A program made the translations under genes and the position numbers. Positions 5,214 to 25,075 of a DNA stretch of 25,075 nt are shown here, piece after piece. Under the pieces are notes generated by a model, which saw only the letters and a list, made by a program, of their open reading frames with translations, did no database searches and was not told the origin of the DNA. This DNA comes from a virus. Each line of letters starts with the position of its first letter. Positions within the stretch are counted from its first letter, which is position 1. The DNA lies in the IMG/VR virus record IMGVR_UViG_3300032220_000939, positions 1 through 25,075 of that record; one strand, written 5' to 3'.

Positions 5214-6860
5214 TTAATATTTCTTCAATATCTCTACTACTTTCTGTAAAAACATTTCCTCTCTACAGAACGCAGCAATTTCTTCAAACCATCCACTTAC
5301 AGAATAACCAGCAAGTTCACCTGACTTAACCATCTCCCAAACCTTATCACCTTCAGGAGTTTTAGCACATTTCATTGCAACAAACCAAGTTCCAATAGGT
5401 AAATCACCATAACCATATTTTGAGGACTTATCATTATCATCTTCCTTAATCCAACTCTCAACAACATATACATCTTTTACAGCTGTGCCATCGTGCATCA
5501 AATCGTTATTACGAGTATATTGGTTCTTCATATATTTGTCCGCTATCATTTTGATAGTTTCTGAACTAAAATAAACTTCATATTTATTTCCGTCATTATC
5601 TTTTCTTGGGATACGTAAATCAGGAACCATTGCTGGTCCAACTATTGTACGTTTTTCTTCACTATCTATTGCAAACTTTTGGTCTTTCTTCTTTTTCTTT
5701 TTGATATTAGGGTCTTCAAAACCACCTATCGTTCCAACATCATAACCTAATTCATCTTCGTGATATAGATAAACACTATCTTCTGTATGAACTTCACCTG
5801 TCATTAATCTACCATCAGCATCTTTATGTGTAGGACCTTCGTATAATTTACCATCTTCTGTATAATGTGGTACACCTACTTCAAATTTACCAAATGAATT
5901 AACTTTACTTTCAGCCCAACTTAAAGCGGATAAACCTCCCCAACTATCATACATTAATTTACCACATCCATCATCATAACTTTTACTACTATCTAAATCT
6001 ACTTTATGACGTGATAAATAACTATACATTCTTCTAACTGTGTCTTCACTAATAGGTTCACCATTAGCGAGCTGTGAGGCTCTAATTTTTCCAACGCTCG
6101 TTCCACAAGAACCCCATCCATTTTCATCTACATATTTCAATACCGCTTTTGCGTTATTCTTAACACTTTCAGGATAATCAGAAACACTTTCCATTTTTAC
6201 CTTACTAAATGAAGGCCACGCAGGAACTACTGTTGATGGTTGTTCCAATCCTAATACCCTTGTGTCCAATGGTGCTTGTGGGTCAATCTTACCCCTATTT
6301 ACGGACGCCTTATTTCTAATTGGATATTCATATGAATATTCAATACGAGCCCATAAATGACGACAATTATACCCTCCACGCCATACTAAAGCACTATCAC
6401 CTTCATCGTTGGTTAGAGCATCCATATCTTCCAATCTCCATACATAATTCTTTTGAATTAATTCTCTACAAAAATCTCTTGTTGTTGGAATAATTGATGG
6501 TGATTGTGCTTGAGGATTTAATACATACTTATATCTAACTCTATATTCCTTTTCATTTTCTGATGATGGACCGTTTGGGTCTGGTGCAGTGATAAAATCT
6601 TCTTTACCGAATGGTGTTATTTTAGAAACAACCCATCCTTCATCAAAAAGGTCTTGTTCGTTTTGAGCAATTGAAACTAATTTATCTAAATATTTATTGT
6701 CTTCGCCATCAGGGATATGAAATTCATGAGGTTTTTCCTTACTGAAATACATCCAATTAATCTCAATTGCTGGTTCGTCAACAAGGGATATACTATCAAT
6801 ACCTGATATATCATCATCTTCTTCTATTTTTAGTTCATATACTTTATCTTTCTTAATCAT
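5214..6860 (-). CDS. Head maturation protease (XkdF-like serine protease) fused to a MuF-like and a further domain
   Basis: This 548-residue protein is composite. Residues 15-40 contain 'DISGIDSISLVDEPAIEINW', a segment typical of the start of these proteases. Residues 126-170 contain TTRDFCRELI and RGGYNCRHLW, motifs of the C-terminal part of Mu F-like minor head proteins. Residues 230-320 hold a helical module with 'ENGWGSCGTSVGKIRASQL', 'VRRMYSYLSRHK' and DSWGG...WA, which also recurs in phage head proteins. Residues 403-526 form the XkdF-like protease: NNDLMHDG with candidate catalytic His456, VYVVESWI, 'LPIGTWFVAMK', and GELAGYSVSGWF with candidate Ser520. A lysine-rich hinge (386-392) precedes the protease. 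Role: it cleaves scaffold and possibly itself during capsid maturation. It sits between the tape measure and the scaffold. Catalytic residue assignment is by motif memory. Confidence 0.78.
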   Translation of the reverse strand: MIKKDKVYELKIEEDDDISGIDSISLVDEPAIEINWMYFSKEKPHEFHIPDGEDNKYLDKLVSIAQNEQDLFDEGWVVSKITPFGKEDFITAPDPNGPSSENEKEYRVRYKYVLNPQAQSPSIIPTTRDFCRELIQKNYVWRLEDMDALTNDEGDSALVWRGGYNCRHLWARIEYSYEYPIRNKASVNRGKIDPQAPLDTRVLGLEQPSTVVPAWPSFSKVKMESVSDYPESVKNNAKAVLKYVDENGWGSCGTSVGKIRASQLANGEPISEDTVRRMYSYLSRHKVDLDSSKSYDDGCGKLMYDSWGGLSALSWAESKVNSFGKFEVGVPHYTEDGKLYEGPTHKDADGRLMTGEVHTEDSVYLYHEDELGYDVGTIGGFEDPNIKKKKKKDQKFAIDSEEKRTIVGPAMVPDLRIPRKDNDGNKYEVYFSSETIKMIADKYMKNQYTRNNDLMHDGTAVKDVYVVESWIKEDDNDKSSKYGYGDLPIGTWFVAMKCAKTPEGDKVWEMVKSGELAGYSVSGWFEEIAAFCREEMFLQKVVEILKKY

Positions 6861-6891: not shown

Positions 6892-9800
6892 TTAAATGGT
6901 TGATAGATTTTTCAATCTTGCTTGTTTATGTGCTTCAGTTGTTAATTCCTGTGACACCACATAAGTTTTTACAATTAATGGTGCTTGTTCTTGTGCTGGA
7001 TTTGATAATATTGGATTATCCTGTCTTGTGGTCATTAAGTTTGAATTGAATGATGTTCCACCACCCGCTTGGTTCATTAATGATAATAATGGAGCGAATT
7101 GTGTAACCGCACCACGTGTCATGATTGCTTCACCTTGTTCCGCTTCAATCATTGTTCCACCTTGAGCGTGTCTCTTTCCACCTATCAATCCACCATCAGC
7201 GTAGTTTTTACCGTAATTAGGTTTGCATGATGCTCCTCCTCCTGCTCCTCCTGAAGATTCCGATTCACTTAACTCAAGTGATGATTGATATTGTGTCCTT
7301 TTAATTGCAGCAACTTGTTTATAACCAAAAACTAAAGCGGAAGCCGCTGCTATTGGTGCTAATACAGGTCCTACAATAGGTATTGCAATAAGAGATGAGA
7401 ACGCACCTACTGCTGATTGTAATGTAGCAATAATTGCTTGAGCAATTTGTATTTTCTTATTCTCCTCAAACGCCTTTCTCTTTATATCATCTTCTTCCTG
7501 TGCAAATTTCTTTTTATTTTCTATTAATTTCTTTTCAAGTTGTTCTTGATTGGTAATTGTCTTTTTATCAAGTTCATTTTGTTTGATATACCTTTTAGTT
7601 GCTTCTTCCATTGCAACTTGTTGTTCTATTTGAGCAACCTTTCCAATGTCTTGAGCGATAGTTTGAGCCACACCTAATGTAGCTTGTGCTGCTTGTAAAA
7701 GGTCTTGTAATTCTTGTTTAGTAATATCTTTAGCCATTTTTAGATATTTCTTTCTAATTTCCTCTTTTGCATCCGCAATTTGTTGTTCTGTAAGTTTTTC
7801 TTTTATTGCTCTATCTTCCAAATCAGCAAATTCTTTCTGTTCAGCCGCTTTAAGTATTGCTCGTTGATTATTATAGAATGATTTTGTTCCTTCTATTAAC
7901 GCATCACCTCTAATCTGTAAGAACTTTAACTCATCATCTAATCTCTTTAAATTTTTATCCCTTTTATTCTGTGCATCATCATCATCTAACTTTTGAAGAG
8001 CCTGATTTTTTGCTTTCTCTAATAGTGTTATTATTCTTTCTTGTTCTATTTTTGATTGTTTTTGAAATTCTGTGTCCTTTTGTAGTGCTGCAACATCATC
8101 AGCATATTTACGTTCTAATGTTGCTTTATTTCTTCCTATCTCACTTTCATCAGCAGCGTTCATTATCTCAAATACCTTATCATTATATTCTTTTATCTTC
8201 TTTTGACTTTCATCAAATGACTTATTATCTTCCTCTTGTCTTTTCTTATTTAATTCAATTACTTTTACACCATATTTTACCCTGATTTGTTCAAGTAATT
8301 TAGCTCTTAATTCTTCCTTATCTTTTGATAATTTAAGATTATTAACCTCTCTTTCCTCATTTTGTTTATCTATCTTTAACTGTGCATCCTGTTTCTTCCT
8401 TTCCTCATTTAATATATTAACACTATTCTCTTGTTGAAGTTTAAGTAATAACGCAGCAGCTGCTTTATTATCATTCTCAATTTTAGCTTTATCAGGACCT
8501 TTTGTTACTGTTGGTTTATACCCTGTTTCTAAACTACCCGCTTCTTTTAATAAATCACTTGCTTTCTTTCTAATTTCTTCTGAAGTGTCAGTTAATTTCT
8601 GTCTTCTACGTTTTAATTCATCATCATAACTTTCTCCTAATTTTCTATCAAAACTAAAAAATCCTACTTGTTCTGCGGTTACTGCTTCCGCTGACTTTTG
8701 TGCCGCAATTCTAAATAACTCTTGTGCTTGTGCTCTTAATCCTGTTGCTTTAATGTAATTTTCAGTATTATTCTTATATAGTTTTTCAGCTTCTGCTAAT
8801 GTATCCGCTTTACCTATTGTACCACCTAATACTTCATTATAAGTTTCTAACGCTTTCTTTTTTGATATTGCACCTGTTTTTGCTTGTTCAAACGCAACAC
8901 CTACCTCTATAATTTTATTTTTTGCTTCTTCTGCGGCAGTTGCACCTTTTAATAAAGTTTCTTTAAATGTTTTTGTCGCTTCTTCTGCTGCGGTAGTCGC
9001 TGTTGCAAGTTGATAATACTTATAAGCAAAAATACCAATGAGTGCAACAATACCTGTTATTGCGGTATATACGGATGTTATAATTGCAACAAATCTTGTC
9101 ATTGCAGTAGTAGCAGCGTTTGTTGCGACAGCTTGTCCTGTTTTAGCTGCGGCATCTAATTCAGATTGTGTTGTAGATATTTTAGTAACTAAAATATTCT
9201 TTTCGGTTTCTAATGTATTAATTTTTTGTGCAAGTGATTCTTGAAATAATACATCAGTTTCTAATAAAGTTGCTGCAGTTAAATCACCTGTTGCAATCGC
9301 TGCATTTGATTTAGCAATTGAATTTTTATAAAATTCTAATCTTGATTTACTAATAATTATATTATTTTCAATATTTGATAAAGTATTTTTATCAACCGCT
9401 AAACTATTAATTTGAGTGTCATTAGCATCCTCTAATTTAGCACCTGAATTTAATACTTGTTCTTTTGTATTTTCAGCAATTGCAGCAGTATTAAGTTTTT
9501 CAGCACCAGTATTAAGTGTTGTTGCACCAGCATCTTTAGCGTTAGCACCAATCTTACCAGCTTCACTTATTCCTTTAGCTCCAATCTTACCAGTATCACT
9601 TATTGCTTTATTTAACCCAAAAACATTATCAATAACATCTGTAATATCATTGATAGTTTCTTTAAATTGGAACCTTAAATCTTTTAAACTAAATGATGTA
9701 AATGTTTTTAATAACGCAATAGCACCATTTAATTTACTTGCAAACTCACCGACAGGACCAGGTAATAACTGTAATGAAGTTAATAAGTCACCTGATTTTG

Positions 9801-10083
9801 CTTTAGTTCGTGCTAAACCATCTTGAATATTAGCTTGTGTTTTAGCCAATAACGCAAATTCTGCTGTTCCTTCCTTCGTTCTTTTAAGTTCAGCGGTAAC
9901 AAGTTTAAACTGTTGTTGTAGATTTTTTGACTTATCAATAATAACATCCAATGGTTTCCCATCAATATCATATTGGATTTTAAGACCCCTACCTAAATCT
10001 TTAAGTTGACCTAATTTCTGTACCGCTTTATCTAATTGGTCGGTCTTTACTTCCGCTTCTATTATGAGTTTTTTAGTTGCCAT
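6892..10083 (-). CDS. Tail tape measure protein
   Basis: At 1063 residues this is a long helical protein. The N-terminus (MATKKLIIEAEVKTDQLDKA) resembles the start of many tape measures. Residues 60-310 are Ala/Lys-rich helices, with a hydrophobic segment at about 331-355 (FVAIITSVYTAITGIVALIG). Residues 520-880 form a highly charged Lys/Glu coiled coil. A second hydrophobic stretch (about 883-922) includes 'LIAIPIVGPVLAPIAAASAL'. The C-terminal region has the motif ADGGLIGGKRHAQGG (962-976) followed by MIEAEQGEAIMTRGAV, a recurrent tape-measure signature. The protein sets tail length and fills the tube. At the usual 1.5 Å per residue it predicts a tail of about 160 nm (inference). Its start overlaps the preceding small gene by 11 bases. 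Unusually, it is transcribed after the fibre genes and before the head genes. Confidence 0.9.
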   Translation of the reverse strand: MATKKLIIEAEVKTDQLDKAVQKLGQLKDLGRGLKIQYDIDGKPLDVIIDKSKNLQQQFKLVTAELKRTKEGTAEFALLAKTQANIQDGLARTKAKSGDLLTSLQLLPGPVGEFASKLNGAIALLKTFTSFSLKDLRFQFKETINDITDVIDNVFGLNKAISDTGKIGAKGISEAGKIGANAKDAGATTLNTGAEKLNTAAIAENTKEQVLNSGAKLEDANDTQINSLAVDKNTLSNIENNIIISKSRLEFYKNSIAKSNAAIATGDLTAATLLETDVLFQESLAQKINTLETEKNILVTKISTTQSELDAAAKTGQAVATNAATTAMTRFVAIITSVYTAITGIVALIGIFAYKYYQLATATTAAEEATKTFKETLLKGATAAEEAKNKIIEVGVAFEQAKTGAISKKKALETYNEVLGGTIGKADTLAEAEKLYKNNTENYIKATGLRAQAQELFRIAAQKSAEAVTAEQVGFFSFDRKLGESYDDELKRRRQKLTDTSEEIRKKASDLLKEAGSLETGYKPTVTKGPDKAKIENDNKAAAALLLKLQQENSVNILNEERKKQDAQLKIDKQNEEREVNNLKLSKDKEELRAKLLEQIRVKYGVKVIELNKKRQEEDNKSFDESQKKIKEYNDKVFEIMNAADESEIGRNKATLERKYADDVAALQKDTEFQKQSKIEQERIITLLEKAKNQALQKLDDDDAQNKRDKNLKRLDDELKFLQIRGDALIEGTKSFYNNQRAILKAAEQKEFADLEDRAIKEKLTEQQIADAKEEIRKKYLKMAKDITKQELQDLLQAAQATLGVAQTIAQDIGKVAQIEQQVAMEEATKRYIKQNELDKKTITNQEQLEKKLIENKKKFAQEEDDIKRKAFEENKKIQIAQAIIATLQSAVGAFSSLIAIPIVGPVLAPIAAASALVFGYKQVAAIKRTQYQSSLELSESESSGGAGGGASCKPNYGKNYADGGLIGGKRHAQGGTMIEAEQGEAIMTRGAVTQFAPLLSLMNQAGGGTSFNSNLMTTRQDNPILSNPAQEQAPLIVKTYVVSQELTTEAHKQARLKNLSTI

Positions 10084-10803: not shown

Positions 10804-12183
10804 TTATAAGAAATACTTTATTCTTATAAATCCTTGTGCACCAGCACCACCTGCTCCTGATTGTGTATTTGCATTACAAAAACCTCCACCTCCACCTCCA
10901 CCAACAAAACTACCATCTGCACCACTTCCAAGTGTAATACGACCATTACCGCCAGCACCCCCATCATCTGCTTTATAAGCACCTCTATTTTGTGCGGATG
11001 CACTATTTCCAGAACCAGTAGTACCTGCACAACCACCACCACCACCACTATAATCGGTACCTGAACCTGTAAAACCAGCAGCACCGCTACCTCCATTATA
11101 TTTTATATCTCCATAAGATAATGAAGCTAAACCTCCACTACCACCTGCACCAGCTCTTGAAGCACAACTTGATGGTGTAACTCCATTAGTTCCTGAATCT
11201 GCTGCAACTGTTGTTTCACTACCAAACCAAGTACTAGTTACACCAGGTGAACCACCATCAACTTGATATGAATATGTTGTACCACCAACTACAGATAAAG
11301 TTGATTTAGCGTAAGCTCCTCCTCCACCACCACCTCCTGCTATATTATTTCCACAACTAAAAAAAAGTGCAACATTTGCACTACCTCCATTACCACCTTT
11401 ACCAAAACATTCAACGGTTATTGAACTAACACCATTAGGTACAGTCCAAGTAAGACCACTACCATCTGATGTTAAATTAACAGTTCTTTCTACAGGTGAT
11501 AATGTCGGTGTTATACTCGGTGTAGGAGTATTAGTATTAGTTGGTGTAACAGTATTTGTTGGAGTTACAGTTGGTGTATTAGTTGGTGTTTGTGTTGGTG
11601 TAGGTGTATTAGTTGGTGTTAATGTATTAGTGGTTGTTGGTGTTGGTGTTTGTGTTCTTGTAGGTGTATTAGTTGGTGTTTTTGTAGGAGTAGGTGTATT
11701 AGTTGGTGTTTTTGTTGGGGTTGGTGTTTGTGTTCGTGTAGGAGTATTAGTAGGCGTAGGAGTTGGTGGGTATTGAACAATTGCATTAACCAAATATTCA
11801 AAATTATAATCAAGTGAAATTGGTGAAACTGTAAATGTAACTTCTAAAGTTGTTGGTGAATTACCAGTAACTCCTGTTATATATACATCTCTAATTCCCA
11901 TGTCTCCACCTTGGTCGTCTGTTGTATAATCCCTTCTTGTTACATTTATTTCATTATTATTAGCTGTTGTTGTTACTAATATTCTAACTATATCTCCATT
12001 GGATAAAAAAGTTGAATATAAACTATTATTATTATCATATATTAATTTTCTTTCTACAGTATTAACAAAACATTGAAGTTTAGAAATAATACTTGTTTGA
12101 TTTTGTTCATCATATGTAACCAACAACGAACCTATTGCTGTTAAATATGTGTCTTGTTGTGAAGGATATACTCTTGCTGTCAT
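10804..12183 (-). CDS. Tail fibre/adhesin with Pro/Thr repeat stalk and C-terminal glycine-rich domain
   Basis: This 459-residue protein has three parts. Residues 1-138 form an N-terminal domain ([20 protein letters not shown] onward), presumably the attachment domain. Residues 139-228 are PT/NT/KT/RT/QT repeats. Residues 233-459 form a glycine-rich domain. It opens with [20 protein letters not shown], contains '[20 protein letters not shown]', '[16 protein letters not shown]', '[16 protein letters not shown]' and [10 protein letters not shown], and ends [14 protein letters not shown]. The opening 'W.VP.GV.SITVE..G.GG' and closing 'G..G.IRI.Y' are hallmarks of glycine-rich domains found at the ends of phage fibres. 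The layered glycine runs recall the polyglycine sandwich of T4-type gp38 adhesins, which bind host receptors. Receptor binding is therefore the likely role. Four cysteines (277, 340, 385, 436) sit in the glycine-rich part. Confidence 0.75.
11500..11769 (-). repeat. Pro/Thr dipeptide repeat region (copy in 10804-12183 gene)
   Basis: About 90 codons of [19 protein letters not shown]-type repeats. Compared with the copy at 1963-2277 it carries basic and polar substitutions (K, R, Q in place of V or S), but shares NTVTPTNT and TPSITPT units and their DNA. At least two internal duplications are visible ([11 protein letters not shown] and [11 protein letters not shown], each twice). Confidence 0.9.
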
Positions 12184-12195
12184 AATTTATTTTTT

Positions 12196-15100
12196 TTATA
12201 TTGCGCATGTTCCAGCACAGTTAGTTCCTTGTGTTGCTGAACCATCTAAATCTATTGTATAACTTGGTCCTGCATTATAACCATCAATTCTATATACATA
12301 ACCATCTCCATTATTATAATAGTGTGAAGTTATTAATGTTCCACCTGTTGTATTATTTCTTGCAACCAATGAATAAGTTGGGTTAGTACAACTTGGACAA
12401 TCAAATCTAGTTACATCATAATAGTTGTATGTAGGTCCTGCAGGTGATGCTGTAGGTGTAGGAGTTGGGCTTGGACAAGCAGAACATCCAGCACCTATTA
12501 CTTCTCCAACATCACTACCAAATGTTATTGATATTTGTTGGTAATTTCCACCATATTGTAAATAATATGTTCCACTTGATTGATAAGCAAATGTATTACC
12601 CGTGAAATAAGTTGATGAACAGAAACTTGTTGTATTACCTGTAAAATTAGCACTAATACCACTAATTGATCCTGAACAAGCATCATTAGTAGTTGAACCA
12701 AAATATCCTGAACCAGTAAATAAAGGAGTATTAGTTGATGTTGGTGTAGGTGTAGGTGTTGGTGTAGAAGTATTTGTTGGAGTTGGTGTTGGTGTTGGTG
12801 TTGGTGTTGAACCTGATGGTACATATCCTGAACAATCATAACCTGTGTTACAATTACCTGTTAAATAAGTTAATGTTAAATAAGATTGGTCAATACCTGT
12901 TGTTCCGATTGGGTCATATTGAACTACACTACTTACAACTTGGATACATTGATAATATGTTCCTGGTCCTACTGAAAAAGCACGTGCAGTTAATACACCA
13001 AAACAATCGTTATATTGTAATGTTGCAATTGTTCCACCTTCAGGTGGTGGTTGTGTAGTACCTGTTACTACAATAGGGAAACAATAACATTGTCCTACTG
13101 GTACACGAGTTGGTGTAGGTGTTGGTGTTCCTGTTGGTGTATTAGTTGGTGTTACAGTTGGAGTATTAGTAGGAGTTGGTGTATTAGTTGGTGTAGGAGT
13201 TGGTGTAACACATGAACCATAATAATCTGATGGACCTACTAATATACCAAATGTTGTTGCTGTATTATCAAATTCAGTACAATTTGTAAATAAATTTAAT
13301 CCTGTATAACCACTACCATTCCAAAATGATGGAAGACCTAAACCAAACGCATATACTGTATTTGGAAATACAGGATTTACATAATTCCAAACGTGTTCCA
13401 ACATTGTGTCGTTAGTCCAATCTATATATCCTGAATTATCATATTCATTTTCAGTAATTTCACTTATTGTAAATGGAACAGCATAACTTGCAACACCTGT
13501 ATGTACATCTTTAAAAGAAGTTGTAAATCCTGTTGTTACAGCAGGTAATGTTCCCATCATTTGGTCATAAAATATACTCCAACCAAAACTTGTGTCTCTT
13601 AAATTAGGATTAGTAAAGTCAGTAGCAATTTTAAATGTACATCCACCTGTTGACTCATAATCACAATATTGATATTTGAAATATCTTGTTGGATATGTTT
13701 GTGGATTTAAATTAGTTTGTACCAATTCAACCCTTGTTAATTCTCTATTAACTAAATTATATTCTTGTATTTTATTAACATAAAAGAATTGTTCTTGTAT
13801 TTTAATAATATCTTTTGGTTCTAAATTAATAACATCTGAATATTTTAAATCAAAAAATCCACTAACAAATCTTGTATTTGAGTTATATAAATTACTTATT
13901 CTATTTTCATAAAATAGATTATAAGCATCATTTTCTGTATATACATTATATGTTTGAACCCCAATATCTATTGGAAATTCAGAACTAAATAATATACACG
14001 CACTATCATTATTAATCTTATCATCATCAGCCATACCCATTGGCATGGTGTGTGATATAATTGGTGCAGTTAATAAAGCTATACCAGTTGTGTCATCTGA
14101 TGAATTAACACTTATGTTAAATGTATTATATAATGTATTTTCATATACCTCACCCAATGTGTCCAAAAACATATTATGACAACCCAAGAACCAAAATAGT
14201 TTTGGTTTTGTTTTTAATCCCCTATAAGCATAATATGTTTGACTATTACCACCCACAGATTCCGTTGTTGATGAACCAACATAATTAATTCCCAATGGTA
14301 ATAATATACCACCGTTATTTGGTTGGTCAGCTGTGTCCCATTGTCTTAATACTTCAGGTGAGAATATTGTTTCTGTAATTTCTGTTTCAGATTTAAAATC
14401 AGTTGGACCATAAAATAATTGTGTTCCATAAACTTGTTTCTCTCTATCTTTAAATTCTTTATTTCCATAATCTCCATCCTCTTGGTCTGTAAAAATTAAG
14501 TTACTTGCAATGTAATTCAACGCTGGTTCAACTGAAAATCCTTTATCGTATGATAATTTATCCGTCCAATCATGTACCACACCTGTTCCAATATAATAAG
14601 AATAAGGTTCAATAATAACATTGTATGGATTAGTTGGGTCAGGTATAAATACCAAATTGAATTTCTTGGCTATAGAAGATATAATATCTATCTGTTTTAT
14701 ATTTTGGTCTATTACTAAACTAAAATTAACTGCATCATCTTCTTGAAATATAATTGGTGTTCCTACTGCTGTTGGAAAATATCTTAATGTACTTATGTCT
14801 GCCACGGGTACACCATCAACAGGGAAACCAAAATCAAATCCATATACTGCATTAATAGTTACTCCACTTAATCCTGTTGCTATTGAACCATATTCACTAT
14901 AAGGGAACATATTAGCAAACCCATAATTAATTGTTTCAGAACAATAGCATGGGATGCCTGTACCTCTTTTACAAATTATAATACTCAATGGTGTTCCATA
15001 AGTTTGACTACCACTATATATTAATTCAACACCTTCTCTTGGAAGATATTCTATTGTACTTAAACTATAACTGAATTTTGTTGCACTTGAACTAAAGTAA

Positions 15101-15960
15101 CCATACATATATAAGGTCTTCATCCAAGGTGTGTTCATAAAGTCAGATGTAATTGTATATCCGTATGTCTTAAATATTAATCTCAATAAACCCCACATAC
15201 TTAAAGCGGGTTTTAATTGGTTGTCAAATATTCCTTCGCCAGGTGAATTAATTTTATAATTTTGAACACCTGCTGCGTACATTGCTCCACTACTTGTCCA
15301 CGCTGATATAGGTCCTGTTGATGTATAGAACCTTGTTTGTTCGTCAGGTGTTCCACCACTCAAGTTAAGTGTTGACCCTGAATATTCATAACCATTATGA
15401 ACCAATGGATAAAAATATAGATACGGTGCTTCTTGATTTAAACCAAAATTAGTTTCCTCATCTTGGTATGGTTCAACTGCGTTATTTAAATTAAATGTAT
15501 GATTGAATGTATATGTAGTGTCATTAAAATCTAAATCTTTTAATAAGTTGTTTCCTATATCTCCAAATAAGTTTGCAACACTACTAAATAAAGTCACATC
15601 ATATTCTACCTTACTATCTAATACATTTACTTTATTTAATCTCATGTAACCATTGAAAAAAATTTGACTGTCTATCAACACATCACAAGGTGTCTTTTTA
15701 TTACTAAAGAAATAAAGTCCTTCCACATCCACATTAAAGAAACTCTCAAAAAATCTATTGTTCTTTTTAGAACCAGGTAAAGAAAGATTTACAGAAAAGT
15801 CCGTGTTCTTTTTTGATATGTCTTGTAACTCCGCAAATGATTTATTAATCTTAATTGGAATATCAGCATATAAATCTAAATTTACATATTGTGTTTCACC
15901 AGTAATTGTTAAATGTGGTACAGTTGTCTGTACCCTTAATATTGTTTGTTGTTGACTCAT
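12196..15960 (-). CDS. Large tail hub/baseplate-like protein with C-terminal chain of small domains on Pro/Thr linkers
   Basis: This is a 1254-residue protein. The N-terminal 130 residues carry 'NLDLYADIPIKINKSFAELQ', DFSVNLSLPGSKKNNRFF and a strand-rich 'FNGYMRLNKVNVLDSKVEYD', a combination I know from large tail-tip proteins of Bacteroidota phages that act like a Tal/hub. The middle (about 130-830) is mixed alpha/beta and includes 'DISTLRYFPTAVGTPIIFQE' and 'INLEPKDIIKIQEQFFYVNK'. From about residue 831 the protein is a series of small Cys-containing, Gly/Ser/Thr/Tyr-rich domains. They are joined by PTPT linkers at about 918-953, 1051-1080 and 1162-1174, and the last ends NCAGTCAI. The C-terminal chain is probably surface-exposed and host-interacting. 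The gap to the preceding gene is three bases, indicating tight coupling. I do not recognise the small domains. Confidence 0.65.
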   Translation of the reverse strand: MSQQQTILRVQTTVPHLTITGETQYVNLDLYADIPIKINKSFAELQDISKKNTDFSVNLSLPGSKKNNRFFESFFNVDVEGLYFFSNKKTPCDVLIDSQIFFNGYMRLNKVNVLDSKVEYDVTLFSSVANLFGDIGNNLLKDLDFNDTTYTFNHTFNLNNAVEPYQDEETNFGLNQEAPYLYFYPLVHNGYEYSGSTLNLSGGTPDEQTRFYTSTGPISAWTSSGAMYAAGVQNYKINSPGEGIFDNQLKPALSMWGLLRLIFKTYGYTITSDFMNTPWMKTLYMYGYFSSSATKFSYSLSTIEYLPREGVELIYSGSQTYGTPLSIIICKRGTGIPCYCSETINYGFANMFPYSEYGSIATGLSGVTINAVYGFDFGFPVDGVPVADISTLRYFPTAVGTPIIFQEDDAVNFSLVIDQNIKQIDIISSIAKKFNLVFIPDPTNPYNVIIEPYSYYIGTGVVHDWTDKLSYDKGFSVEPALNYIASNLIFTDQEDGDYGNKEFKDREKQVYGTQLFYGPTDFKSETEITETIFSPEVLRQWDTADQPNNGGILLPLGINYVGSSTTESVGGNSQTYYAYRGLKTKPKLFWFLGCHNMFLDTLGEVYENTLYNTFNISVNSSDDTTGIALLTAPIISHTMPMGMADDDKINNDSACILFSSEFPIDIGVQTYNVYTENDAYNLFYENRISNLYNSNTRFVSGFFDLKYSDVINLEPKDIIKIQEQFFYVNKIQEYNLVNRELTRVELVQTNLNPQTYPTRYFKYQYCDYESTGGCTFKIATDFTNPNLRDTSFGWSIFYDQMMGTLPAVTTGFTTSFKDVHTGVASYAVPFTISEITENEYDNSGYIDWTNDTMLEHVWNYVNPVFPNTVYAFGLGLPSFWNGSGYTGLNLFTNCTEFDNTATTFGILVGPSDYYGSCVTPTPTPTNTPTPTNTPTVTPTNTPTGTPTPTPTRVPVGQCYCFPIVVTGTTQPPPEGGTIATLQYNDCFGVLTARAFSVGPGTYYQCIQVVSSVVQYDPIGTTGIDQSYLTLTYLTGNCNTGYDCSGYVPSGSTPTPTPTPTPTNTSTPTPTPTPTSTNTPLFTGSGYFGSTTNDACSGSISGISANFTGNTTSFCSSTYFTGNTFAYQSSGTYYLQYGGNYQQISITFGSDVGEVIGAGCSACPSPTPTPTASPAGPTYNYYDVTRFDCPSCTNPTYSLVARNNTTGGTLITSHYYNNGDGYVYRIDGYNAGPSYTIDLDGSATQGTNCAGTCAI
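12440..12475 (-). repeat. Short Pro/Thr linker 3 in the hub-like protein
   Basis: About 12 codons (PSPTPTPTASPA) lie between GCSAC and PTYNYYDVTRFDCPSC, marking the boundary of the last small Cys-containing domain. Confidence 0.75.
12722..12813 (-). repeat. Pro/Thr linker 2 in the hub-like protein
   Basis: About 30 codons of [17 protein letters not shown] type lie between a domain ending DCSGYVPSGS and one starting LFTGSGYFGSTTND. Confidence 0.85.
13105..13207 (-). repeat. Pro/Thr linker 1 in the hub-like protein
   Basis: About 34 codons of [18 protein letters not shown]-type sequence separate a domain ending DYYGSC from one starting VGQCYCFPIVVTG. The DNA units match those of the two other Pro/Thr genes. 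Confidence 0.85.
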
Positions 15961-17565: not shown

Positions 17566-18206
17566 ATTGTTTCTATTTTTGTGCTTATAAAAATATTATC
17601 TACCATATCTACAAATTGTTCAAACGTATATTGTTCCAACGCATCCATAAACACGGTACTTCCTTCTAATTTATTATAAAATTTATCTTCTATATCTGCT
17701 GGTAAAATACCAAACTCTTTTATATTTCGTTGTATTGCAAACGCCATACCTTTTTGTAAATCTATATTAAACCTTACATTCTTTTCCTTTATCCAATCAA
17801 GTAATACTTTCATGGGTAGTGCTTTCTTTCCTTTCTTTATTCTTGACCTGTTGATAATATACGCCGTAGAAACTTGTGATTGTAGTGATTTGTATTTTAC
17901 ATTACTTACATCTGTTGCAAATATTCCCCTTGCGTTCATCCAATCTAATATTGCATCAATAGGAACACCTTTCTTTCCTTTAGCACGACCTGATTGTACC
18001 CATTGGAAATAATCATTAGCGAATATTTGGAAACTAATAACACCTTTTTTTGATGTGGGTACTACCATAATGGACGCACGTAAAGAACCTGAAGCAACTT
18101 TATTGCCAGTTCCAAATGGTCGTTTTGCTGAATAGGGATATTCATCAAGGTCCAATACTCCTTTCAACACATCATCCATTATAGTTGTTATAGTTTCTAT
18201 ATCCAT
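17562..18206 (-). CDS. Tail completion protein candidate (HK97 gp10-like) with duplicated motif
   Basis: The 214 residues include 'FQWVQSGRAKGKKGVPIDAI' (67-86), followed by LDWMNARGI and, later, MAFAIQRNIKEFGILP (154-169). The series 'v.SGR.....P...I..W...KGI ... AFAI.R.I...GI' is that of HK97 gp10-like neck or tail completion proteins, which join tail tube to head. The W/GI/AF block occurs twice: 78-125 (KKGVPIDAILDWMNARGI, then AYIINRSRIKKG) and 127-166 (KKALPMKVLLDWIKEKN, then MAFAIQRNIKEFG), suggesting an internal duplication. The gene is coupled to both neighbours. The fibre stop and its start share one base (TAATG at 18206), and its stop overlaps the next start as ATGA. Confidence 0.55.
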   Translation of the reverse strand: MDIETITTIMDDVLKGVLDLDEYPYSAKRPFGTGNKVASGSLRASIMVVPTSKKGVISFQIFANDYFQWVQSGRAKGKKGVPIDAILDWMNARGIFATDVSNVKYKSLQSQVSTAYIINRSRIKKGKKALPMKVLLDWIKEKNVRFNIDLQKGMAFAIQRNIKEFGILPADIEDKFYNKLEGSTVFMDALEQYTFEQFVDMVDNIFISTKIETI

Positions 18207-21200
18207 TACGCAGGGTTTATAATTTGATAAGCAACTGTGTCTGCGTCACCATTACCATTTGATGTTATTGTAAATGTTCCACTACCTTTTGAACTTACTG
18301 CAACCATATGTGCGTTGGTTAAAGTTTGTTTGGTTAAGAATATTAAACTATTAGCTGTAACTAAACTATTAGAAACCGTTACAGTACCAGGGTTTCCACC
18401 ATCAAGTAGTGCAGTTCCCATTGTTTTATTTGAACCTGACGCAAACATTACATTACCTGTTACTTTTAATGAACCACTTATGTTTGTGTTTCTATATAAA
18501 GTAATATCACCTAATGATGCAGGACTTGCTGATGTTCCTACTTGCATCCAAGTTTCATAATCACCACCTGATGGTAAATCCTTAAATAGTGAGCCACTAT
18601 TTGAGTTATTGACTGAAATTTGTAATGTGTCATAGTTTCCACCATTTGCAAACATTTCAATATCGCTTTCTACATTAGCACCAAATTCAAGTCTGGAAAT
18701 AGATTTATCAGGGGCCAAATTAAAAGCCCCTCCTAAAAAATCATCGCTGTATGTTCCAAATTCAAAGTCATATCCAGGACCCCACGCTTGAACAACACCT
18801 GAAACAAATAAACTACCTGTAATAGTTGTATTACCAATAAAAGTATTTGAACCACTTACAGATAATGAACCTGTAACAACTAAATTATTTTTTACATTAG
18901 TTGCTGCGTTAATCTGTAATGTTTGGTTTGCTGTGGTACCATCCATTTTACCATATATAATAGACCCACTTCTTGCATCGTTAAGTGAACCGTATGATTG
19001 ATTAGTTATATATAAATTATTGTCACCTGTTTCTTCACTACCAGCATTTCTACCAATAGCAATATTACCTGAACCACTTACATTATTACTTAAAGCACCG
19101 GCACCAATTGCAAGGTTCTCAACACCTGTTGTGTTAGAAAATAATGTATTTTTTCCGATTGATATATTATTTGAACCAGTCGTGTTTTGATATGAAGCAG
19201 CATCACCAATAGCAATGTTAGAACCACCTGTGGTATTATTTTTTAAGGCGTCTGTTGCTATTGCTAAATTAAATTCTGCTACATTATTCTGTAATGTATT
19301 TGCTCCAATTGCTGTGTTATTTGAACCTGATATATTATTTAATTGTGATTGGTTTCCAATAGCGACATTATTTTGTCCTGTCGTCATATTAGGTAAAGAG
19401 GCACCACCTACAGCTAAATTACCACCACCTGTTGTTGCTGAACCTAAAGCGTTATTACCTAAACCTGTATTACTATTTGCTGTTGTTATACTCGCTAACG
19501 CAAACTCACCATAAGCCAAATTATTAAGTGAGTTTCTACCTTTTGCCCATAATGAACCACTACTAATTTGTAAAGAACCATATATTGTTTGTGTTGGATA
19601 TGTTGTTGCTGAACCTGTGGTGATTAAACCAGTTCTATCTGTAACAACTGAACCTGTAACTACTGATGAACCATTAACACTTAATGAACCTGTTATATTA
19701 ACTGAACCTGAAACATTAACTGAACCTGAAACATTAACTGAACCTGTAAAGTTTGAGTTATTATTACTATCAATTCTTAAAGCGTTTCTTCTATTACCTG
19801 CACCTGTTCCTGTTCCCACAACAAATACTGTGTCTTGTGAACTTTCTTGTAATGAACCTGTTGCGTTAAACCTACCAACGAATGTTGAACCACCTATTGT
19901 TGTTGATGTGTGTGACGCTGAAACAATTAAGTTTTGTCCCAATATTGTGGTTGCAACTAAATGACCACCTGTAAATGAACCACTATATATACTATTAACT
20001 TCATTACTTCTACCATAAATAATGTTTTGTCCAAATGCTCTTCTTGTTCCACTATTAGAACCTGAAACTGTAAGTGTATTACCTACACCACCAAATGTGT
20101 TTTGATTTACTGTAATATTATTTACCGCTGTTGAAACTGATGATGAATAGTTATTTGAAACAGTTATACCACCACCTAAATTACCTTGATAAGTTATTGA
20201 TGAACTATTGTGACTTAATTGTGTGGAGTTAGTAAAAACATTATTACTAATAGTTGTATTTAATCCTAATGTTGTTCTATTTGCTATTGAAATAAGCGAA
20301 CCTATGTTACCATTACCAGTCATATTTAACGAACCAGATGGGTGATCTATATAAATTGATGAATTATTACCCAAACTAAAATTATTACTAAAAGTTGGTT
20401 TTGCTAATGATGATGATGTAAATCCTAAACCAACATATCCACCCAATATATTACTATTCATCGTTGGTAACATCACAGATGATGTTGAAACTAATATACC
20501 ATTTTGTGTTGATGGTTGTCCGAATAAAATATTATTACTACCACTTAAATACGCTTTAAATCCTAGATCAAAACTATAATTTTCATCAGGTATTAACCCA
20601 TTCATTATAATATTATTGGAACCTGTAATACTCCAACTACCTGTTAATTGTGATTGAGGTGCGTTTGGGTCATTACCTAAACCCATTATAATATTACCAC
20701 CTGCTTCTGAACCTGTTATTCTAAATGGTACTGTTTGTCCTGATTGTGCAATAAATATATTACCACCAAAATCTGTTAATGAACCTGATATAAATTGTGT
20801 TGTATTAACTGAACCTGTTGTTATTAATCCATCTCTATTACTTGAAATATATGGACTTAAAGCATCCGCTATATTTGCGTATGTGTCGTATTGAGTTACA
20901 CCTGATGTATTTGTTGTTAAAACATATGAACCTGTTCCTAATTGAATTGAACTATTAATAAAGTCAATTTGGTCAGGATAGAATGTTCCTGATTGATGTA
21001 ATGAACCTGAAAGATTTATTACTGATGATGAAACTACTAATTCATTACCTGCTACAATATCAATACGTTCAACTGAACCGTAATTATCAACCTTAACATA
21101 CGTTACATCATCACCCAAAAATATTTGACCACCACTTGCTGTGATGTGTGTGTCGGTTGGTGATGTGTTATATATTTCTACAAATCTTACATCACCTTGA

Positions 21201-22969
21201 TTTGGTTGTAAGAATAAACTACCTGTTCCTATTATGTTTGTTACACTTAATGAACCTGTTACTTGTAAGTCATTTGTTGTAGCCCAATATGAACCTGTCT
21301 GTGCAAATAAACTATCACCACTTGTTCCACTCGTTCCTGAAGTACCTGACCCACCTGAACCTGTTACATATTCTAATTGTAACGATGAACTATTCCATGT
21401 TACATAATTTGGTGATGTTGAACCTGAAGGTATATTACTAATTTTTAATGAACCTGTTATTTTAACTGAACCTGTAACATTTATTATATCATTATTACTT
21501 GATATTGAAACTCCAGTACCTCTTAATCTTAAAGCAGTATTACTGGAAATTTCTAAATCACCGTAACCTAAATCATTAATTACTGGTGTTTTAAGTACGT
21601 TCTGTATTTCTATATTTGAACTTCCTAATGATAATTTATCACCTACATTAGTATATGATATTGTTGTATAGTCAACAACATCACCAATATTAATTGAACC
21701 TGTAATATCTAATCCTCTTGTAAATTGTGGTGCTGGATTATTACCTAAATTAGGTGCTACAGTCATAAATGGAACATAATCTAACGCAAATACATTATCC
21801 CAATCCTTAAATGATATACCATTACTACTATCTACTTTTATATTTAATTCAACATCTGTGTTTAAATTAGGATAATCATATACTCCTAAATAAAATTGTG
21901 CGTTGCTACCAGTTGGTCCAAATATATATCCTTCCGCTGGTGTTGATTGTTTTTGAGTTGAATCAACATTAAAAGAACTAGGTGACATTGTTAATATTGC
22001 TAACGCGTCTTGTGAAACAAACCTTCCACTACCTGTAACGATTAAATCAAATGGTTCTGAACCACTTATTAATAATGAACCTGTTATACCTACATTGTTT
22101 GTTGTGTTCCATATTGAACCTGTTAGTGCAAATAAACTATCACCACTCGTTCCACTACTACCTGTTGAACCTGAACTACCTGATGTACCATCGGTTCCTG
22201 ATGAACCACTAGTTCCATCTGTTCCACTACTTCCACTACTACCATCTGTTCCTGAAGAACCACTTGTTCCGTCACTTCCATTAGAACCTGACGTACCATC
22301 TGTTCCATTACTTCCTGATGTTCCATCGGTACCAGAACTACCTGACGTACCATCTGTTCCTGAACTTCCTGAAGAACCACTAGTACCATCCGTTCCATTA
22401 GAACCTGATGTACCGTCTGTACCGTTACTACCTGATGTACCAGAACTTCCATCACTACCGTTACTACCTGATGAACCATCGGTTCCTGAACTACCTGATG
22501 TTCCTGAACTACCACTACTACCATCACTACCCGATGTTCCTGATGAACCACTACTTCCGTTTGTACCTGATGAACCTGTTGAACCATCACTACCTGATGA
22601 ACCTGATGTACCACTACTACCATCGGTACCGTTAGAACCTGACGTACCAGAACTTCCACTTGTTCCTGATGTTCCACCACTACCTGTTGAACCTGAACTA
22701 CCTGAAGCCCCACTCGTTCCACTTGAACCATTGGTTCCATTAACACCACTCGTACCTGATGTACCTGATGAACCATTTGAGATAGGAACATTATTGATAT
22801 AGAATGAACCTGATATGTTCACTTCAGTTAAACTCATTTGTAATGGACTATTACTTCCATCACCTGTTTGTATTGTTTGTAATGAATTTGTTAAACCATT
22901 AGAACTATCGGTCATTTTTAATAGACCTTGATAGGAACTTGATACGTATAAATTATTTAATTGACCCAT
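18206..22969 (-). CDS. Giant tail fibre with collagen-like stalk, beta repeats and YadA-like head repeats
   Basis: The product has 1587 residues. Residues 1-65 form an N-terminal domain (MGQLNNLYVSSSYQGLLKMT). Residues 66-276 are 71 uninterrupted Gly-X-Y positions with X and Y almost only S, T, D or N. Residues 280-1140 carry repeated 'TGSL.VSGS' units, typical of trimeric beta-prism or beta-helix fibre shafts. A short second Gly-X-Y run near 540 is followed by a second GDSLFA.TGS.W module. Residues about 1142-1323 have repeats of the form N..IG..A...TTGS.N.AIG, like the YadA/Hep_Hag head. The end (about 1500-1587) has TVTVSNSLVTANSLIFLTKQ and DADTVAYQIINPA, a C-terminal domain I recall from other phage fibres. 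It probably trimerises and is displayed as a long receptor-binding fibre. No S74 chaperone domain is seen. Confidence 0.82.
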   Translation of the reverse strand: MGQLNNLYVSSSYQGLLKMTDSSNGLTNSLQTIQTGDGSNSPLQMSLTEVNISGSFYINNVPISNGSSGTSGTSGVNGTNGSSGTSGASGSSGSTGSGGTSGTSGSSGTSGSNGTDGSSGTSGSSGSDGSTGSSGTNGSSGSSGTSGSDGSSGSSGTSGSSGTDGSSGSNGSDGSSGTSGSNGTDGTSGSNGTDGTSGSSGSSGTDGTSGSSGTDGTSGSNGTDGTSGSNGSDGTSGSSGTDGSSGSSGTDGTSGSSGTDGTSGSSGSTGSSGTSGDSLFALTGSIWNTTNNVGITGSLLISGSEPFDLIVTGSGRFVSQDALAILTMSPSSFNVDSTQKQSTPAEGYIFGPTGSNAQFYLGVYDYPNLNTDVELNIKVDSSNGISFKDWDNVFALDYVPFMTVAPNLGNNPAPQFTRGLDITGSINIGDVVDYTTISYTNVGDKLSLGSSNIEIQNVLKTPVINDLGYGDLEISSNTALRLRGTGVSISSNNDIINVTGSVKITGSLKISNIPSGSTSPNYVTWNSSSLQLEYVTGSGGSGTSGTSGTSGDSLFAQTGSYWATTNDLQVTGSLSVTNIIGTGSLFLQPNQGDVRFVEIYNTSPTDTHITASGGQIFLGDDVTYVKVDNYGSVERIDIVAGNELVVSSSVINLSGSLHQSGTFYPDQIDFINSSIQLGTGSYVLTTNTSGVTQYDTYANIADALSPYISSNRDGLITTGSVNTTQFISGSLTDFGGNIFIAQSGQTVPFRITGSEAGGNIIMGLGNDPNAPQSQLTGSWSITGSNNIIMNGLIPDENYSFDLGFKAYLSGSNNILFGQPSTQNGILVSTSSVMLPTMNSNILGGYVGLGFTSSSLAKPTFSNNFSLGNNSSIYIDHPSGSLNMTGNGNIGSLISIANRTTLGLNTTISNNVFTNSTQLSHNSSSITYQGNLGGGITVSNNYSSSVSTAVNNITVNQNTFGGVGNTLTVSGSNSGTRRAFGQNIIYGRSNEVNSIYSGSFTGGHLVATTILGQNLIVSASHTSTTIGGSTFVGRFNATGSLQESSQDTVFVVGTGTGAGNRRNALRIDSNNNSNFTGSVNVSGSVNVSGSVNITGSLSVNGSSVVTGSVVTDRTGLITTGSATTYPTQTIYGSLQISSGSLWAKGRNSLNNLAYGEFALASITTANSNTGLGNNALGSATTGGGNLAVGGASLPNMTTGQNNVAIGNQSQLNNISGSNNTAIGANTLQNNVAEFNLAIATDALKNNTTGGSNIAIGDAASYQNTTGSNNISIGKNTLFSNTTGVENLAIGAGALSNNVSGSGNIAIGRNAGSEETGDNNLYITNQSYGSLNDARSGSIIYGKMDGTTANQTLQINAATNVKNNLVVTGSLSVSGSNTFIGNTTITGSLFVSGVVQAWGPGYDFEFGTYSDDFLGGAFNLAPDKSISRLEFGANVESDIEMFANGGNYDTLQISVNNSNSGSLFKDLPSGGDYETWMQVGTSASPASLGDITLYRNTNISGSLKVTGNVMFASGSNKTMGTALLDGGNPGTVTVSNSLVTANSLIFLTKQTLTNAHMVAVSSKGSGTFTITSNGNGDADTVAYQIINPA
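18990..19545 (-). repeat. YadA/Hep_Hag-like head repeats in the fibre
   Basis: About eleven degenerate units of 14-18 residues share 'NN.aIG..aL.nNTTG', for example NNVAIGNQSQLNN, NNTAIGANTLQNN, SNIAIGDAASYQNTTG and NNISIGKNTLFSNTTG. In trimeric autotransporter adhesins such units form a left-handed parallel beta-roll that binds surfaces. Confidence 0.8.
19681..19752 (-). repeat. Four tandem 18-bp units in the fibre gene
   Basis: Four consecutive 18-base units occur, the middle two (19699-19716 and 19717-19734) identical: taactgaacctgaaacat. They encode SVNVSG, a six-residue beta-strand repeat, and the outer units are diverged by a few bases. This looks like recent slippage expansion of the shaft. 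Confidence 0.9.
22142..22774 (-). repeat. Proline-free collagen-like Gly-X-Y repeat
   Basis: Glycine occurs at every third position from residue 66 to 276 of the fibre without a break. Typical triplets are GSS, GTS, GTD, GSN and GSD, often in 9- to 12-residue higher-order units such as GTDGTSGSS. There is no proline in the X or Y positions. The DNA is a 9-base-periodic array of ccatctgttcctgatgaacc-like units. Confidence 0.95.
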
Positions 22970-22990: not shown

Positions 22991-23998
22991 TTATATATTT
23001 TTCCACGCTGTTGATATTGTGTTCCATAATTCTGCCAACTCATACCATTTTCTACCTGATGTTATAAATGGTAATTCAGGAAGAACACATCTGTTATAAT
23101 CAAATGGTTGTGTTATTTGTAAGTTCATTGTCCATCCTCCAAGTACCGTTTCAAATCTTTCAAGGAATGGGTCACACGTTGCGTTCCAATTACATTCATA
23201 CTCACTCAAATACAATACTGTAAATACATCCTTACAAATTTCTAAACCATCGTTCATCACATCTCGTTGATTTGAATAATCATCTTCCACTATATCTGAT
23301 ATTATTATTTGAAAGTTATATATCATTTCATTCTGTGCCAGTGTTGTTTGACCTGGTACAATATACATCCTCGTATATAATGGTTCTTTCTTGGTCTCTA
23401 TATCTAATGTTAATTGTGTTACATCACCAAACCCATATGAGTTAATCTGTTCGTGTGCTCTTGCTATCTCTTTTAAATCATCCAATATTAATTTGTAATT
23501 AACTTCATTCACCGATGTTGGTAATGTTAATCCTGATATTGGTAATACACAAGTATTGTAGTCAAACGGTTGTTCTATTGTTATGTTCAAGGTCCATCCA
23601 CCTAATAGTGTCTCATATCTTTCCAAGAATGGTTCAGCAGGACTATTCCATAATGGTTCATAATCTATACTGAATCCACCGAATGTTGCTGTATATGATT
23701 GATATAGTATTGTCCATACATCTTTAACCGTTTCCAATGTGTCAGACATAACATCTTCCTGATTGGATAGGTCTGCGTTGATAATATCACATATAATAAT
23801 AGAGAAATTATAGTCCAATCTATTCTGTGCTAATACAGTTTGACCTGGTACCACATACATTTTCATATATACAGGTTCCTGTTTGGTCTCTATATCCATT
23901 GTAAGTTGGGTAATATCACCATAACCAAAAGAATTAATCTGTGGGTTATAATAAGCTATACCACTTAAATCCTGAATAATCTGTTTGTAGTTCACCAT
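22991..23998 (-). CDS. Structural protein made of two tandem copies of one domain
   Basis: The 335 residues contain two copies of the same domain: residues 2-153 (VNYKQIIQDL to CVLP) and 166-307 (VNYKLILDDL to CVLP). The best preserved part aligns QINSFGYGDITQLTMDIETK with QINSYGFGDVTQLTLDIETK and VVPGQTVLAQN with IVPGQTTLAQN. By eye about 64 of the first 100 aligned positions are identical. The copies differ by about 10 residues in the loop near 101-115. A short unrelated C-terminal tail follows (308-335). The unit, of about 150 residues, resembles a small tail protein of Bacteroidota phages that I cannot name. Position between the tail chaperone and the fibre suggests a tail terminator, tube or fibre-adaptor role. 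The start is preceded by TATATTTA at five bases. Confidence 0.65.
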   Translation of the reverse strand: MVNYKQIIQDLSGIAYYNPQINSFGYGDITQLTMDIETKQEPVYMKMYVVPGQTVLAQNRLDYNFSIIICDIINADLSNQEDVMSDTLETVKDVWTILYQSYTATFGGFSIDYEPLWNSPAEPFLERYETLLGGWTLNITIEQPFDYNTCVLPISGLTLPTSVNEVNYKLILDDLKEIARAHEQINSYGFGDVTQLTLDIETKKEPLYTRMYIVPGQTTLAQNEMIYNFQIIISDIVEDDYSNQRDVMNDGLEICKDVFTVLYLSEYECNWNATCDPFLERFETVLGGWTMNLQITQPFDYNRCVLPELPFITSGRKWYELAELWNTISTAWKNI

Positions 23999-24028: not shown

Positions 24029-24319
24029 TTATGAATTACGAGCTTGTTTCATAATTCTTTCTTGCTCTTGGTCGTAGTTTATTAAAAAGGATAGTTGGTT
24101 TAGAGCTTCCACCACCGTTTTTTCGTAGATGTACTCGTGTTTTGTAAAATCATTTCCAGCCAATTTATTGACGACAATGAACCAGCCATAGACCGATTGA
24201 AAAGAGCGCTCATTATAATCTTCCTCAAACTCCATACGAGCTTTATCCTCATCCATATTGGCAATCTCGGAGTCAAAGACAGCTGGAAATAATTTGAATA
24301 TCTGTTTGCGTAATTGATA
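24029..24319 (-). CDS. C-terminal (T-like) extension of the tail assembly chaperone, reached by -1 frameshift
   Basis: From TAT at 24319 this frame encodes 96 residues, beginning YQLRKQIFKLFPAVFDSEIA, with VYGWFIVVNKLAGNDFTKHE and a helical end 'VEALNQLSFLINYDQEQERI'. Joined to residues 1-175 of the zero frame it makes a 271-residue fusion with uniform character. The motif 'GW..v...LAgnD..K.......LN.LSfl' is what I would expect as the C-terminus of this family. An internal ATG at 24256 could give a 75-residue protein alone, but the sequence between 24319 and 24256 is also protein-like, which favours the fusion. The stop is followed 30 bases later by the start of the duplicated-domain gene. 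Confidence 0.6.
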   Translation of the reverse strand, partial: YQLRKQIFKLFPAVFDSEIANMDEDKARMEFEEDYNERSFQSVYGWFIVVNKLAGNDFTKHEYIYEKTVVEALNQLSFLINYDQEQERIMKQARNS

Positions 24320-24843
24320 AAAAAAAACTGTGCCGATAATATGACACCAACATCTAATTTATTCTTAAACAGTTCAGCCCGTTTCTGCATGTTCTTAACA
24401 TCATATTTCTCAATCTCAAAATCATGATGGGACCTTTCACTAATAATTGGTCTATACATTATTGCACATAAGATATGTAACATATCTAATACCTCATCTT
24501 CTTTCTTGGTACTGATAGTGTCCATATCCACATATTCTGCGAACGATAAGTCCTCCCACTTGGGGAAGAACCCATAACTTATTCCATCTAAATCAAACCT
24601 ATCTTTAAACTTGGGTCTTTCTGTTGGTATTAGTTTTACAATTTCTGATGCTAAATAATTAACCTTCTCAAAATCTGTTTCTAATAAATCTTCAACAGGT
24701 GCTCCTGTAAATAAACTCACCAACTTGGCTGCGTAATAATCATCCGAGAATAAATCTTTTAACTTATACATCTTAACATAATGACCTATCGTCATTAGTT
24801 CAGGTATCTCGTATTGTTTATCTTCTATTTTAAATTTTACCAT
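24100..24843 (-). CDS. Tail assembly chaperone-like protein, zero-frame (G-like) product
   Basis: The frame gives 247 residues starting MVKFKIEDKQYEIPELMTIG, with LDGISYGFFPKWEDLSFAEY and later 'LCAIMYRPIISERSHHDFEI'. The pattern 'YG..P.W.dls..EY.D......L...l.aimYRPI' is one I associate with the tail assembly chaperone-type genes of Bacteroidota phages. Residues 1-175 look like a real folded protein. After TTT TTT TTT (24327-24319) the zero frame becomes basic and unlike the rest (INYANRYSNYFQLSLTPRLP onward) until its stop at 24100. The -1 frame continues convincingly. Such G/GT arrangements control tape measure chaperones. The start at 24843 overlaps the previous gene by 14 bases. It could instead be a gene broken by a one-base deletion. 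Confidence 0.7.
   Translation of the reverse strand: MVKFKIEDKQYEIPELMTIGHYVKMYKLKDLFSDDYYAAKLVSLFTGAPVEDLLETDFEKVNYLASEIVKLIPTERPKFKDRFDLDGISYGFFPKWEDLSFAEYVDMDTISTKKEDEVLDMLHILCAIMYRPIISERSHHDFEIEKYDVKNMQKRAELFKNKLDVGVILSAQFFFINYANRYSNYFQLSLTPRLPIWMRIKLVWSLRKIIMSALFNRSMAGSLSSINWLEMILQNTSTSTKKRWWKL
24319..24327 (-). promoter_or_regulatory. Slippery T9 run, candidate programmed -1 frameshift site
   Basis: The minus strand reads CAG TTT TTT TTT ATC in the zero frame. Any T TTT TTT heptamer in it fits the X XXY YYZ rule for -1 slippage. A -1 shift at the end of the run gives TAT CAA TTA and opens the 96-codon frame. Confidence 0.55.
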
Positions 24844-25060
24844 AATCTTTTTTCATACCCAATCTCTTATGTTTATTACCAATCTTGTAGTTACATCCAC
24901 AGGATTTAGTATTGTTCCTCTCAACATTTTGTACTATAAGCATCTTCTCGTTACCACACTCACACATAAATATACCCGTCTTATAAAATCTATTACCTGA
25001 TTTTATTATTGATGTGTGTTTGACTAATGTCAGTTTGTTTGTTTTATCTCCTATATTCAT
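24830..25060 (-). CDS. Small Cys-rich (zinc-ribbon-like) protein, HNH/AP2-associated family
   Basis: From ATG at 25060 this encodes 76 residues. The frame also extends to a GTG at 25075, so the true start could lie outside the window. It reads KTNKLTLVK...GNRFYKTGIFMCECGNEK and ends with SCGCNYKIGNKHKRLG. The four cysteines form CxC (33, 35) and CxC (54, 56) pairs, as in the small phage proteins 'G..TV......R...C.CDCG......... SCGC'. These often stand alone or precede HNH endonuclease domains. It has many Lys residues and may bind nucleic acid through a zinc knuckle. No HNH motif is present, so it may be a solitary domain or a remnant. Its stop overlaps the start of the chaperone gene by 14 bases. 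Confidence 0.55.
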   Translation of the reverse strand: MNIGDKTNKLTLVKHTSIIKSGNRFYKTGIFMCECGNEKMLIVQNVERNNTKSCGCNYKIGNKHKRLGMKKDYGKI

Positions 25061-25075
25061 ATATATAATATACAC

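Follow-up and report, generated by a model that had tools for sequence, protein, structure and literature searches.

A putative programmed −1 frameshift gene of uncultured phages may encode a G/GT-like tail assembly chaperone with two conserved C-termini

The usual description of G/GT genes is that a frameshift adds the T domain to a small proportion of the G molecules. In lambda-type G/GT the shift takes place near the 3′-end of G, and this kind of architecture is typical of tail chaperones, while the U_UUU_UUU sequence is less shift-prone in E. coli than A_AAA_AAG (PMC5009743). The published mean distances between the slip site and the stop codon are 26 nt for the SEA-PHAGES and 36 nt for the Xu phages, and PRFect uses the slip-to-stop distance as a feature, its authors tying missed cases to distances >30 nt (PMC10885494).

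The gene described here is encoded by the minus strand of a 25,075-base virus record in IMG/VR, the whole of which is referred to as the window. Its ORF starts with the ATG at 24843, ends with the stop codon at 24102–24100, and reads in the zero frame through TTT TTT TTT over 247 codons. The N-terminal domain common to both products comprises 172 zero-frame codons (24328–24843, minus strand) and is conserved over the 124 relatives described below. It is followed by the T9 slip site (24319–24327, minus strand), the core heptamer of which, T_TTT_TTT, lies at 24325–24319 with an A next to it at 24318. Beyond the run, the zero frame encodes a basic C-terminal extension of 72 codons (24103–24318, minus strand) with a conserved IWxKIKLxWxMRK segment. 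The −1 frame extends for 96 codons (24032–24319, minus strand, stop codon at 24031–24029); it begins with YQLRKQIFKLFP... and continues with an acidic linker and a helical domain of the form GWF..NDxTKHE...LNQLxFLI. The coordinates of the ORF, the run, and the stops in the initial annotation proved to be right, and one −1 step at the T9 run gives a fusion of exactly 271 residues. Both parts that had been taken for real protein, namely the zero frame as far as the run and the −1 frame beyond it, turned out to be conserved across the relatives.

Relatives were collected from IMG/VR with the fusion as query, which yielded 26 loci, and with profile searches, which yielded up to 80 loci each. The resulting set contained 124 sequences with a readable site, the 25,075-nt window included, some of the contigs being overlapping or near-identical, and the identity of the relatives ranged from about 57% to 100%. 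A −1 step was needed in every one of the 124, and T_TTT_TTT followed by A was present in all of them (NNT_TTT_TTT_A). The site was of the T9 form, TTTTTTTTTA, in 112 sequences, while the other 12 contained only T7, where ACT, TCT, CAT, or CGT precedes TTT TTT A in the register for a tandem slip of two Phe-tRNAs. The X XXY YYZ site proposed in the initial annotation was borne out, as the heptamer stands in the zero-frame register in each sequence including the T7-only ones, and reading the site in the homologues revealed that they are split at a conserved slippery site with the same −1 register in 124 of 124. Taken at the level of sequence comparison, a programmed −1 frameshift at the X_XXY_YYZ-type site T_TTT_TTT is strongly supported.

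Since the fusion query might favour split genes, a second sample of 80 loci was taken via the large terminase (TerL), the gene of which directly precedes the frameshift gene. The slip site in its searched form was found in 55 of the 79 TerL-sampled loci examined, and the remaining ones were contig ends, sites that the motif missed, or T10 sites. Thirteen of these remaining loci were opened, and 12 contained T9 or T10 in the slip register, followed by the −1 domain in one frame and by a long tail with a W-x-x-RK-type motif in the zero frame. The exception (L157) had an additional frame break inside the N-part.

For the search for −1 start codons and the counts of Phe codons a non-redundant set of 67 genes was used, which are <95% identical in the −1 part (counts made on this set disregard phylogeny). 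In none of the 67 representatives was an ATG, GTG, or TTG codon found between the upstream −1 stop and the first conserved −1 residue, and the earliest possible −1 start lies 20–28 codons beyond the slip, past the conserved YQxRKxIFxLYP segment. As there is no start codon ahead of the conserved −1 residues, the −1 frame can be reached only from the upstream ORF, and a start of its own for the −1 part was ruled out.

We consider it probable that this locus is a G/GT-like tail assembly chaperone gene whose expression involves programmed −1 slippage at U_UUU_UUU. Translation without a shift, the course most ribosomes would take, would yield a 247-residue “G” consisting of the 175-residue N-part and the basic 72-residue tail, while a fraction of them would shift by −1 at the pair of Phe codons, which would give a 271-residue “GT” protein, in which the same N-part is followed by the conserved segment, the acidic linker, and the helical T-like domain. 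The zero frame continues for approximately 70 codons within the T-coding sequence, so that this stretch would encode two proteins simultaneously. We infer that slippage is by the ribosome and not by the RNA polymerase, as well as the ratio of the products and the action of the N-part on the tape measure and of the T-part on the tail tube.

The assignment as a G/GT-like tail assembly chaperone, the best identity for the product, is plausible and was made from the architecture, a weak fold match, and the tail-gene neighbours. The model of the N-part has a predicted beta-beta-helical fold, and its top row in a comparison with 223 chains of solved structures was the HK97 tail assembly chaperone 2OB9, a weak match (Z 3.7, rmsd 3.6 over 69 residues) spanning residues 1–73 of the N-part; just one other row exceeded Z 2. 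At the sequence level, no match to a chaperone family was found in Pfam or PHROGs. Tail assembly chaperone families are very divergent. The Pfam matches to Git3 and TetR_C_19 were below their cut-offs and were judged to be due to chance. Sequence search of the solved structures gave no hit, Foldseek gave no significant match against the PDB, the T-like part had no match in the PDB, and two scans of bacterial genomes found no relative.

The lack of a family match, the weakness of the fold match, and the distance from the tape measure gene would also suit a real dual-coded frameshift gene that encodes, directly after TerL, a different factor for packaging, the head, or the tail, and the gene does directly follow the large terminase gene in L031 and L093, as it also does in L009 and L011. 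We give this explanation a modest chance of being right, since the G/GT-type architecture and the HK97 chaperone in the top structure row speak against it, as do the genes located after the frameshift gene, which look tail-like. These encode the duplicated protein described next, a fibre, and an HK97-gp10-like protein (the last with a sub-threshold score). The next gene (22991–23998, minus strand), which also comes straight after the frameshift gene in L031 and L093, encodes a 335-aa tandem duplication, the halves of which are 60.5% identical over 152 residues. It showed weak PHROG matches to families of unknown function and of virion structural proteins, and is possibly a tail-terminator-like protein. 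The ORF at 6892–10083 is likely to encode the tape measure, as read from its sequence, although it has no family match, and it is not adjacent to the frameshift gene but approximately 14 kb away. This distance is weak evidence, because the whole order of the late genes is rearranged.

The late order itself is unusual: TerL (in the relatives) is followed by the frameshift gene, the duplicated tail protein, the fibre, the gp10-like protein and, further on, the likely tape measure gene, after which genes for an XkdF-type protease, a capsid-like protein, a tube-like protein, the portal, and a DUF6712 protein are found. The 548-aa protein encoded at 5214–6860 (minus strand) has the XkdF protease domain in its C-terminal portion and other head-protein-like segments ahead of it. 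The fibre-like protein of 1587 aa (18206–22969, minus strand) has a long proline-free GSSGTSGSDG stretch that is collagen-like, and long repeat linkers of the same type occur in three separate genes (1552–2646, 10804–12183, and 12196–15960, all on the minus strand). Upstream of the frameshift gene, an HNH-type homing-endonuclease-like ORF (24830–25075, minus strand; phrog_374 HNH endonuclease, E 2e-7) reaches from the contig end to this gene. Similar ORFs precede the gene in four relatives (L003, L004, L007, and L027) and a different HNH-like ORF does so in L028, whereas L009, L011, and L031 have TerL in this position; the HNH-like ORF upstream of the frameshift gene is probably an insertion.

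The slip at U_UUU_UUU could also be made by the RNA polymerase, the −1 product being translated from mRNAs that gained one extra U on T9. The T9 and T10 runs are long enough for this and they are the dominant form, and an RNA stimulator was not detected, since the structure searches gave no downstream RNA structure for the window sequence (z +0.95) and no consensus pairs in 29 sequences, both searches covering structures free of pseudoknots. Nevertheless, nine of the 67 non-redundant genes contain only T7, which always stands as NNT TTT TTT, the register for tandem tRNA slip, with the preceding Thr, Ser, His, or Arg codon ending in T in each case. A T7 run is short for transcriptional slippage. 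Both Phe codons of the slip site were TTT in 67 of the 67 genes, while 28% of the upstream Phe codons were TTC, and only one further run of ≥7 T was found elsewhere in the 54 kb of these genes. The T7 variants lead us to favour ribosomal slippage of paired Phe-tRNAs and to regard polymerase slippage as unlikely.

The zero frame remains open for 72 codons past the slip in the window and for 62–72 codons in all 124 sequences, the distance from the slip to the zero-frame stop being 204–216 nt in nearly all loci. Over 61 codons it was open in 45 of 45 representatives, while none of the 45 was open in the third forward frame or in any of the three antisense frames; in a control on the coding region upstream, an alternative frame was open in 0 of 450 tests. 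When the −1 protein was redrawn synonymously with the codon usage of the other window genes, the openness had P values from <0.0003 to 0.025 per sequence; the same redraw with the codon usage of the overlap itself, which already reflects any constraint, gave weaker values (P = 0.01–0.23). The synonymous difference, counted pairwise, was 0.70 upstream, 0.44 in the overlap (−1 frame), and 0.83 past the zero-frame stop, and the share of the third codon position in the differences between close pairs was 68%, 34%, and 60% in the upstream, overlap, and following parts, respectively. In the zero-frame alignment W204 (position 29 of the extension) was invariant in 48 of 48 sequences, at a column where the −1 frame varies between Met, Val, and Leu; the Lys at extension position 26 was likewise invariant, the −1 residue being Lys, Gln, or Glu, and so was G221.

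RNA elements are frequent downstream of frameshift sites, and the low synonymous change in the overlap could be ascribed to such an element instead of a zero-frame protein. This is highly improbable, as the constraint covers approximately 200 nt and stops at the zero-frame stop, all relatives share the openness of the zero frame but not of the other frames, a conserved structure was not found, and amino acids are conserved column by column specifically in the zero frame. Since the zero frame is open, constrained, and has invariant residues of its own, both frames of the overlap are, on the evidence of the alignments, under selection, and the gene is read as making two conserved alternative C-termini. 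The initial annotation had regarded the zero frame after the run as noise, which is refuted by its openness in all relatives, the purifying selection seen in the synonymous rates, and the column-wise conservation. Its proposal of a tail-chaperone G-GT pair stands as a plausible one with respect to architecture, fold match, and neighbours, but the pair is not a textbook one, because the zero-frame end is a conserved, dual-coded alternative C-terminus.

Foldseek matches of 260–267 residues to both models, such as A0A6J5N0W0 (267 aa), suggest, as far as predicted models can tell, that some distant relatives hold both parts in one ORF. A single 271-residue ORF broken by an assembly error or a recent one-base homopolymer deletion, as the initial annotation had allowed for, would be in line with such relatives and with a homopolymer site where one more T would join the frames, but it is practically excluded by the identical register in 124 of 124 contigs, in particular by the T7-only relatives that are exactly in the slippery-heptamer register, by the selection on the zero-frame tail, and by the complete genomes of two isolates, the Nonlabens phages P12024S and P12024L, which are also split at T9.

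The zero-frame extension has a net charge of +8 to +15, while the −1 frame, read over the same nucleotides, gives −2 to −9. In the models, for which the two readings were folded separately and not as one 271-aa chain, the zero-frame tail was predicted to be partly helical with low confidence, its last 30 residues having pLDDT <50, and the −1 domain was confidently helical over its final 50 residues (pLDDT about 90). We lean toward the interpretation that this clade overprinted approximately 70 codons on the T domain, by which a short “G” end became a second functional C-terminus and the slip came to switch between two evolved tails. In the likely history of the clade, an early zero-frame stop was lost and the zero frame came to overprint the T-coding sequence.

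If this holds, the unshifted product also has a conserved, strongly basic tail, encoded by DNA that also specifies the acidic linker and the T domain, and slippage sets the balance between two evolved tails. Annotation tools that expect an in-frame stop near the slip would then overlook such genes. A frameshift is hereby assigned to a gene that hundreds of uncultured phages carry behind TerL, and it explains the split pair of hypothetical genes in the Nonlabens phages P12024S and P12024L.

Among named phages, these Nonlabens phages were the only cultured relatives found by tblastn (E 0.6), which was later backed by profile comparison and synteny. A BFVD match pointed to Flavobacterium phage 6H (E 3e-5), and the gene was not located in the fetched 6H genome. 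In the TerL-related isolates Flavobacterium 11b, Cellulophaga phi10:1, Bacteroides Versailles, and Polaribacter P12002L, TerL is followed by other genes, and Bacteroides BS-TP3 has a 178-aa ORF there, without a T-run slip site and with no evident similarity. In P12024S and P12024L (Inhavirus) the split gene directly follows TerL, as in the IMG/VR family, and a T9 site is at the same place. The pairs are annotated as two hypothetical proteins (P12024S_38/_39 and P12024L_40/_41) without a frameshift. The N-part is related to these genes with an hhalign probability of 95 and a BFVD E value of 3e-9, and their −1 frame begins with FFxxxRxxxxxLYP, resembling that of the IMG/VR frameshift family. They differ in that their zero frame ends approximately 25 codons past the slip, which is nearer to the ordinary G/GT.

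The locus also resembles the overprinted dual-coded genes of viruses in having two selected frames and a synonymous constraint bounded by the overlap, but in contrast to those overlapping genes (PMC8227390), its two products would have a common start and N-domain and differ only in the C-termini reached via the frameshift. With lambda gpG/gpGT (PMC5009743) it has in common one start, a shorter in-frame and a longer −1 product, a slippery heptamer, a common N-part, and a location in the tail block. Unlike lambda G/GT, however, the gene lies after TerL and not beside the tape measure gene, has no family match at the sequence level, and slips 204–216 nt before the zero-frame stop as opposed to the published means of 26–36 nt (PMC10885494), and its zero-frame tail is dual-coded and conserved. 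The frameshift trick itself is known from lambda G/GT, and what is different here is the length of the DNA read in both frames, which exceeds the usual one several times.
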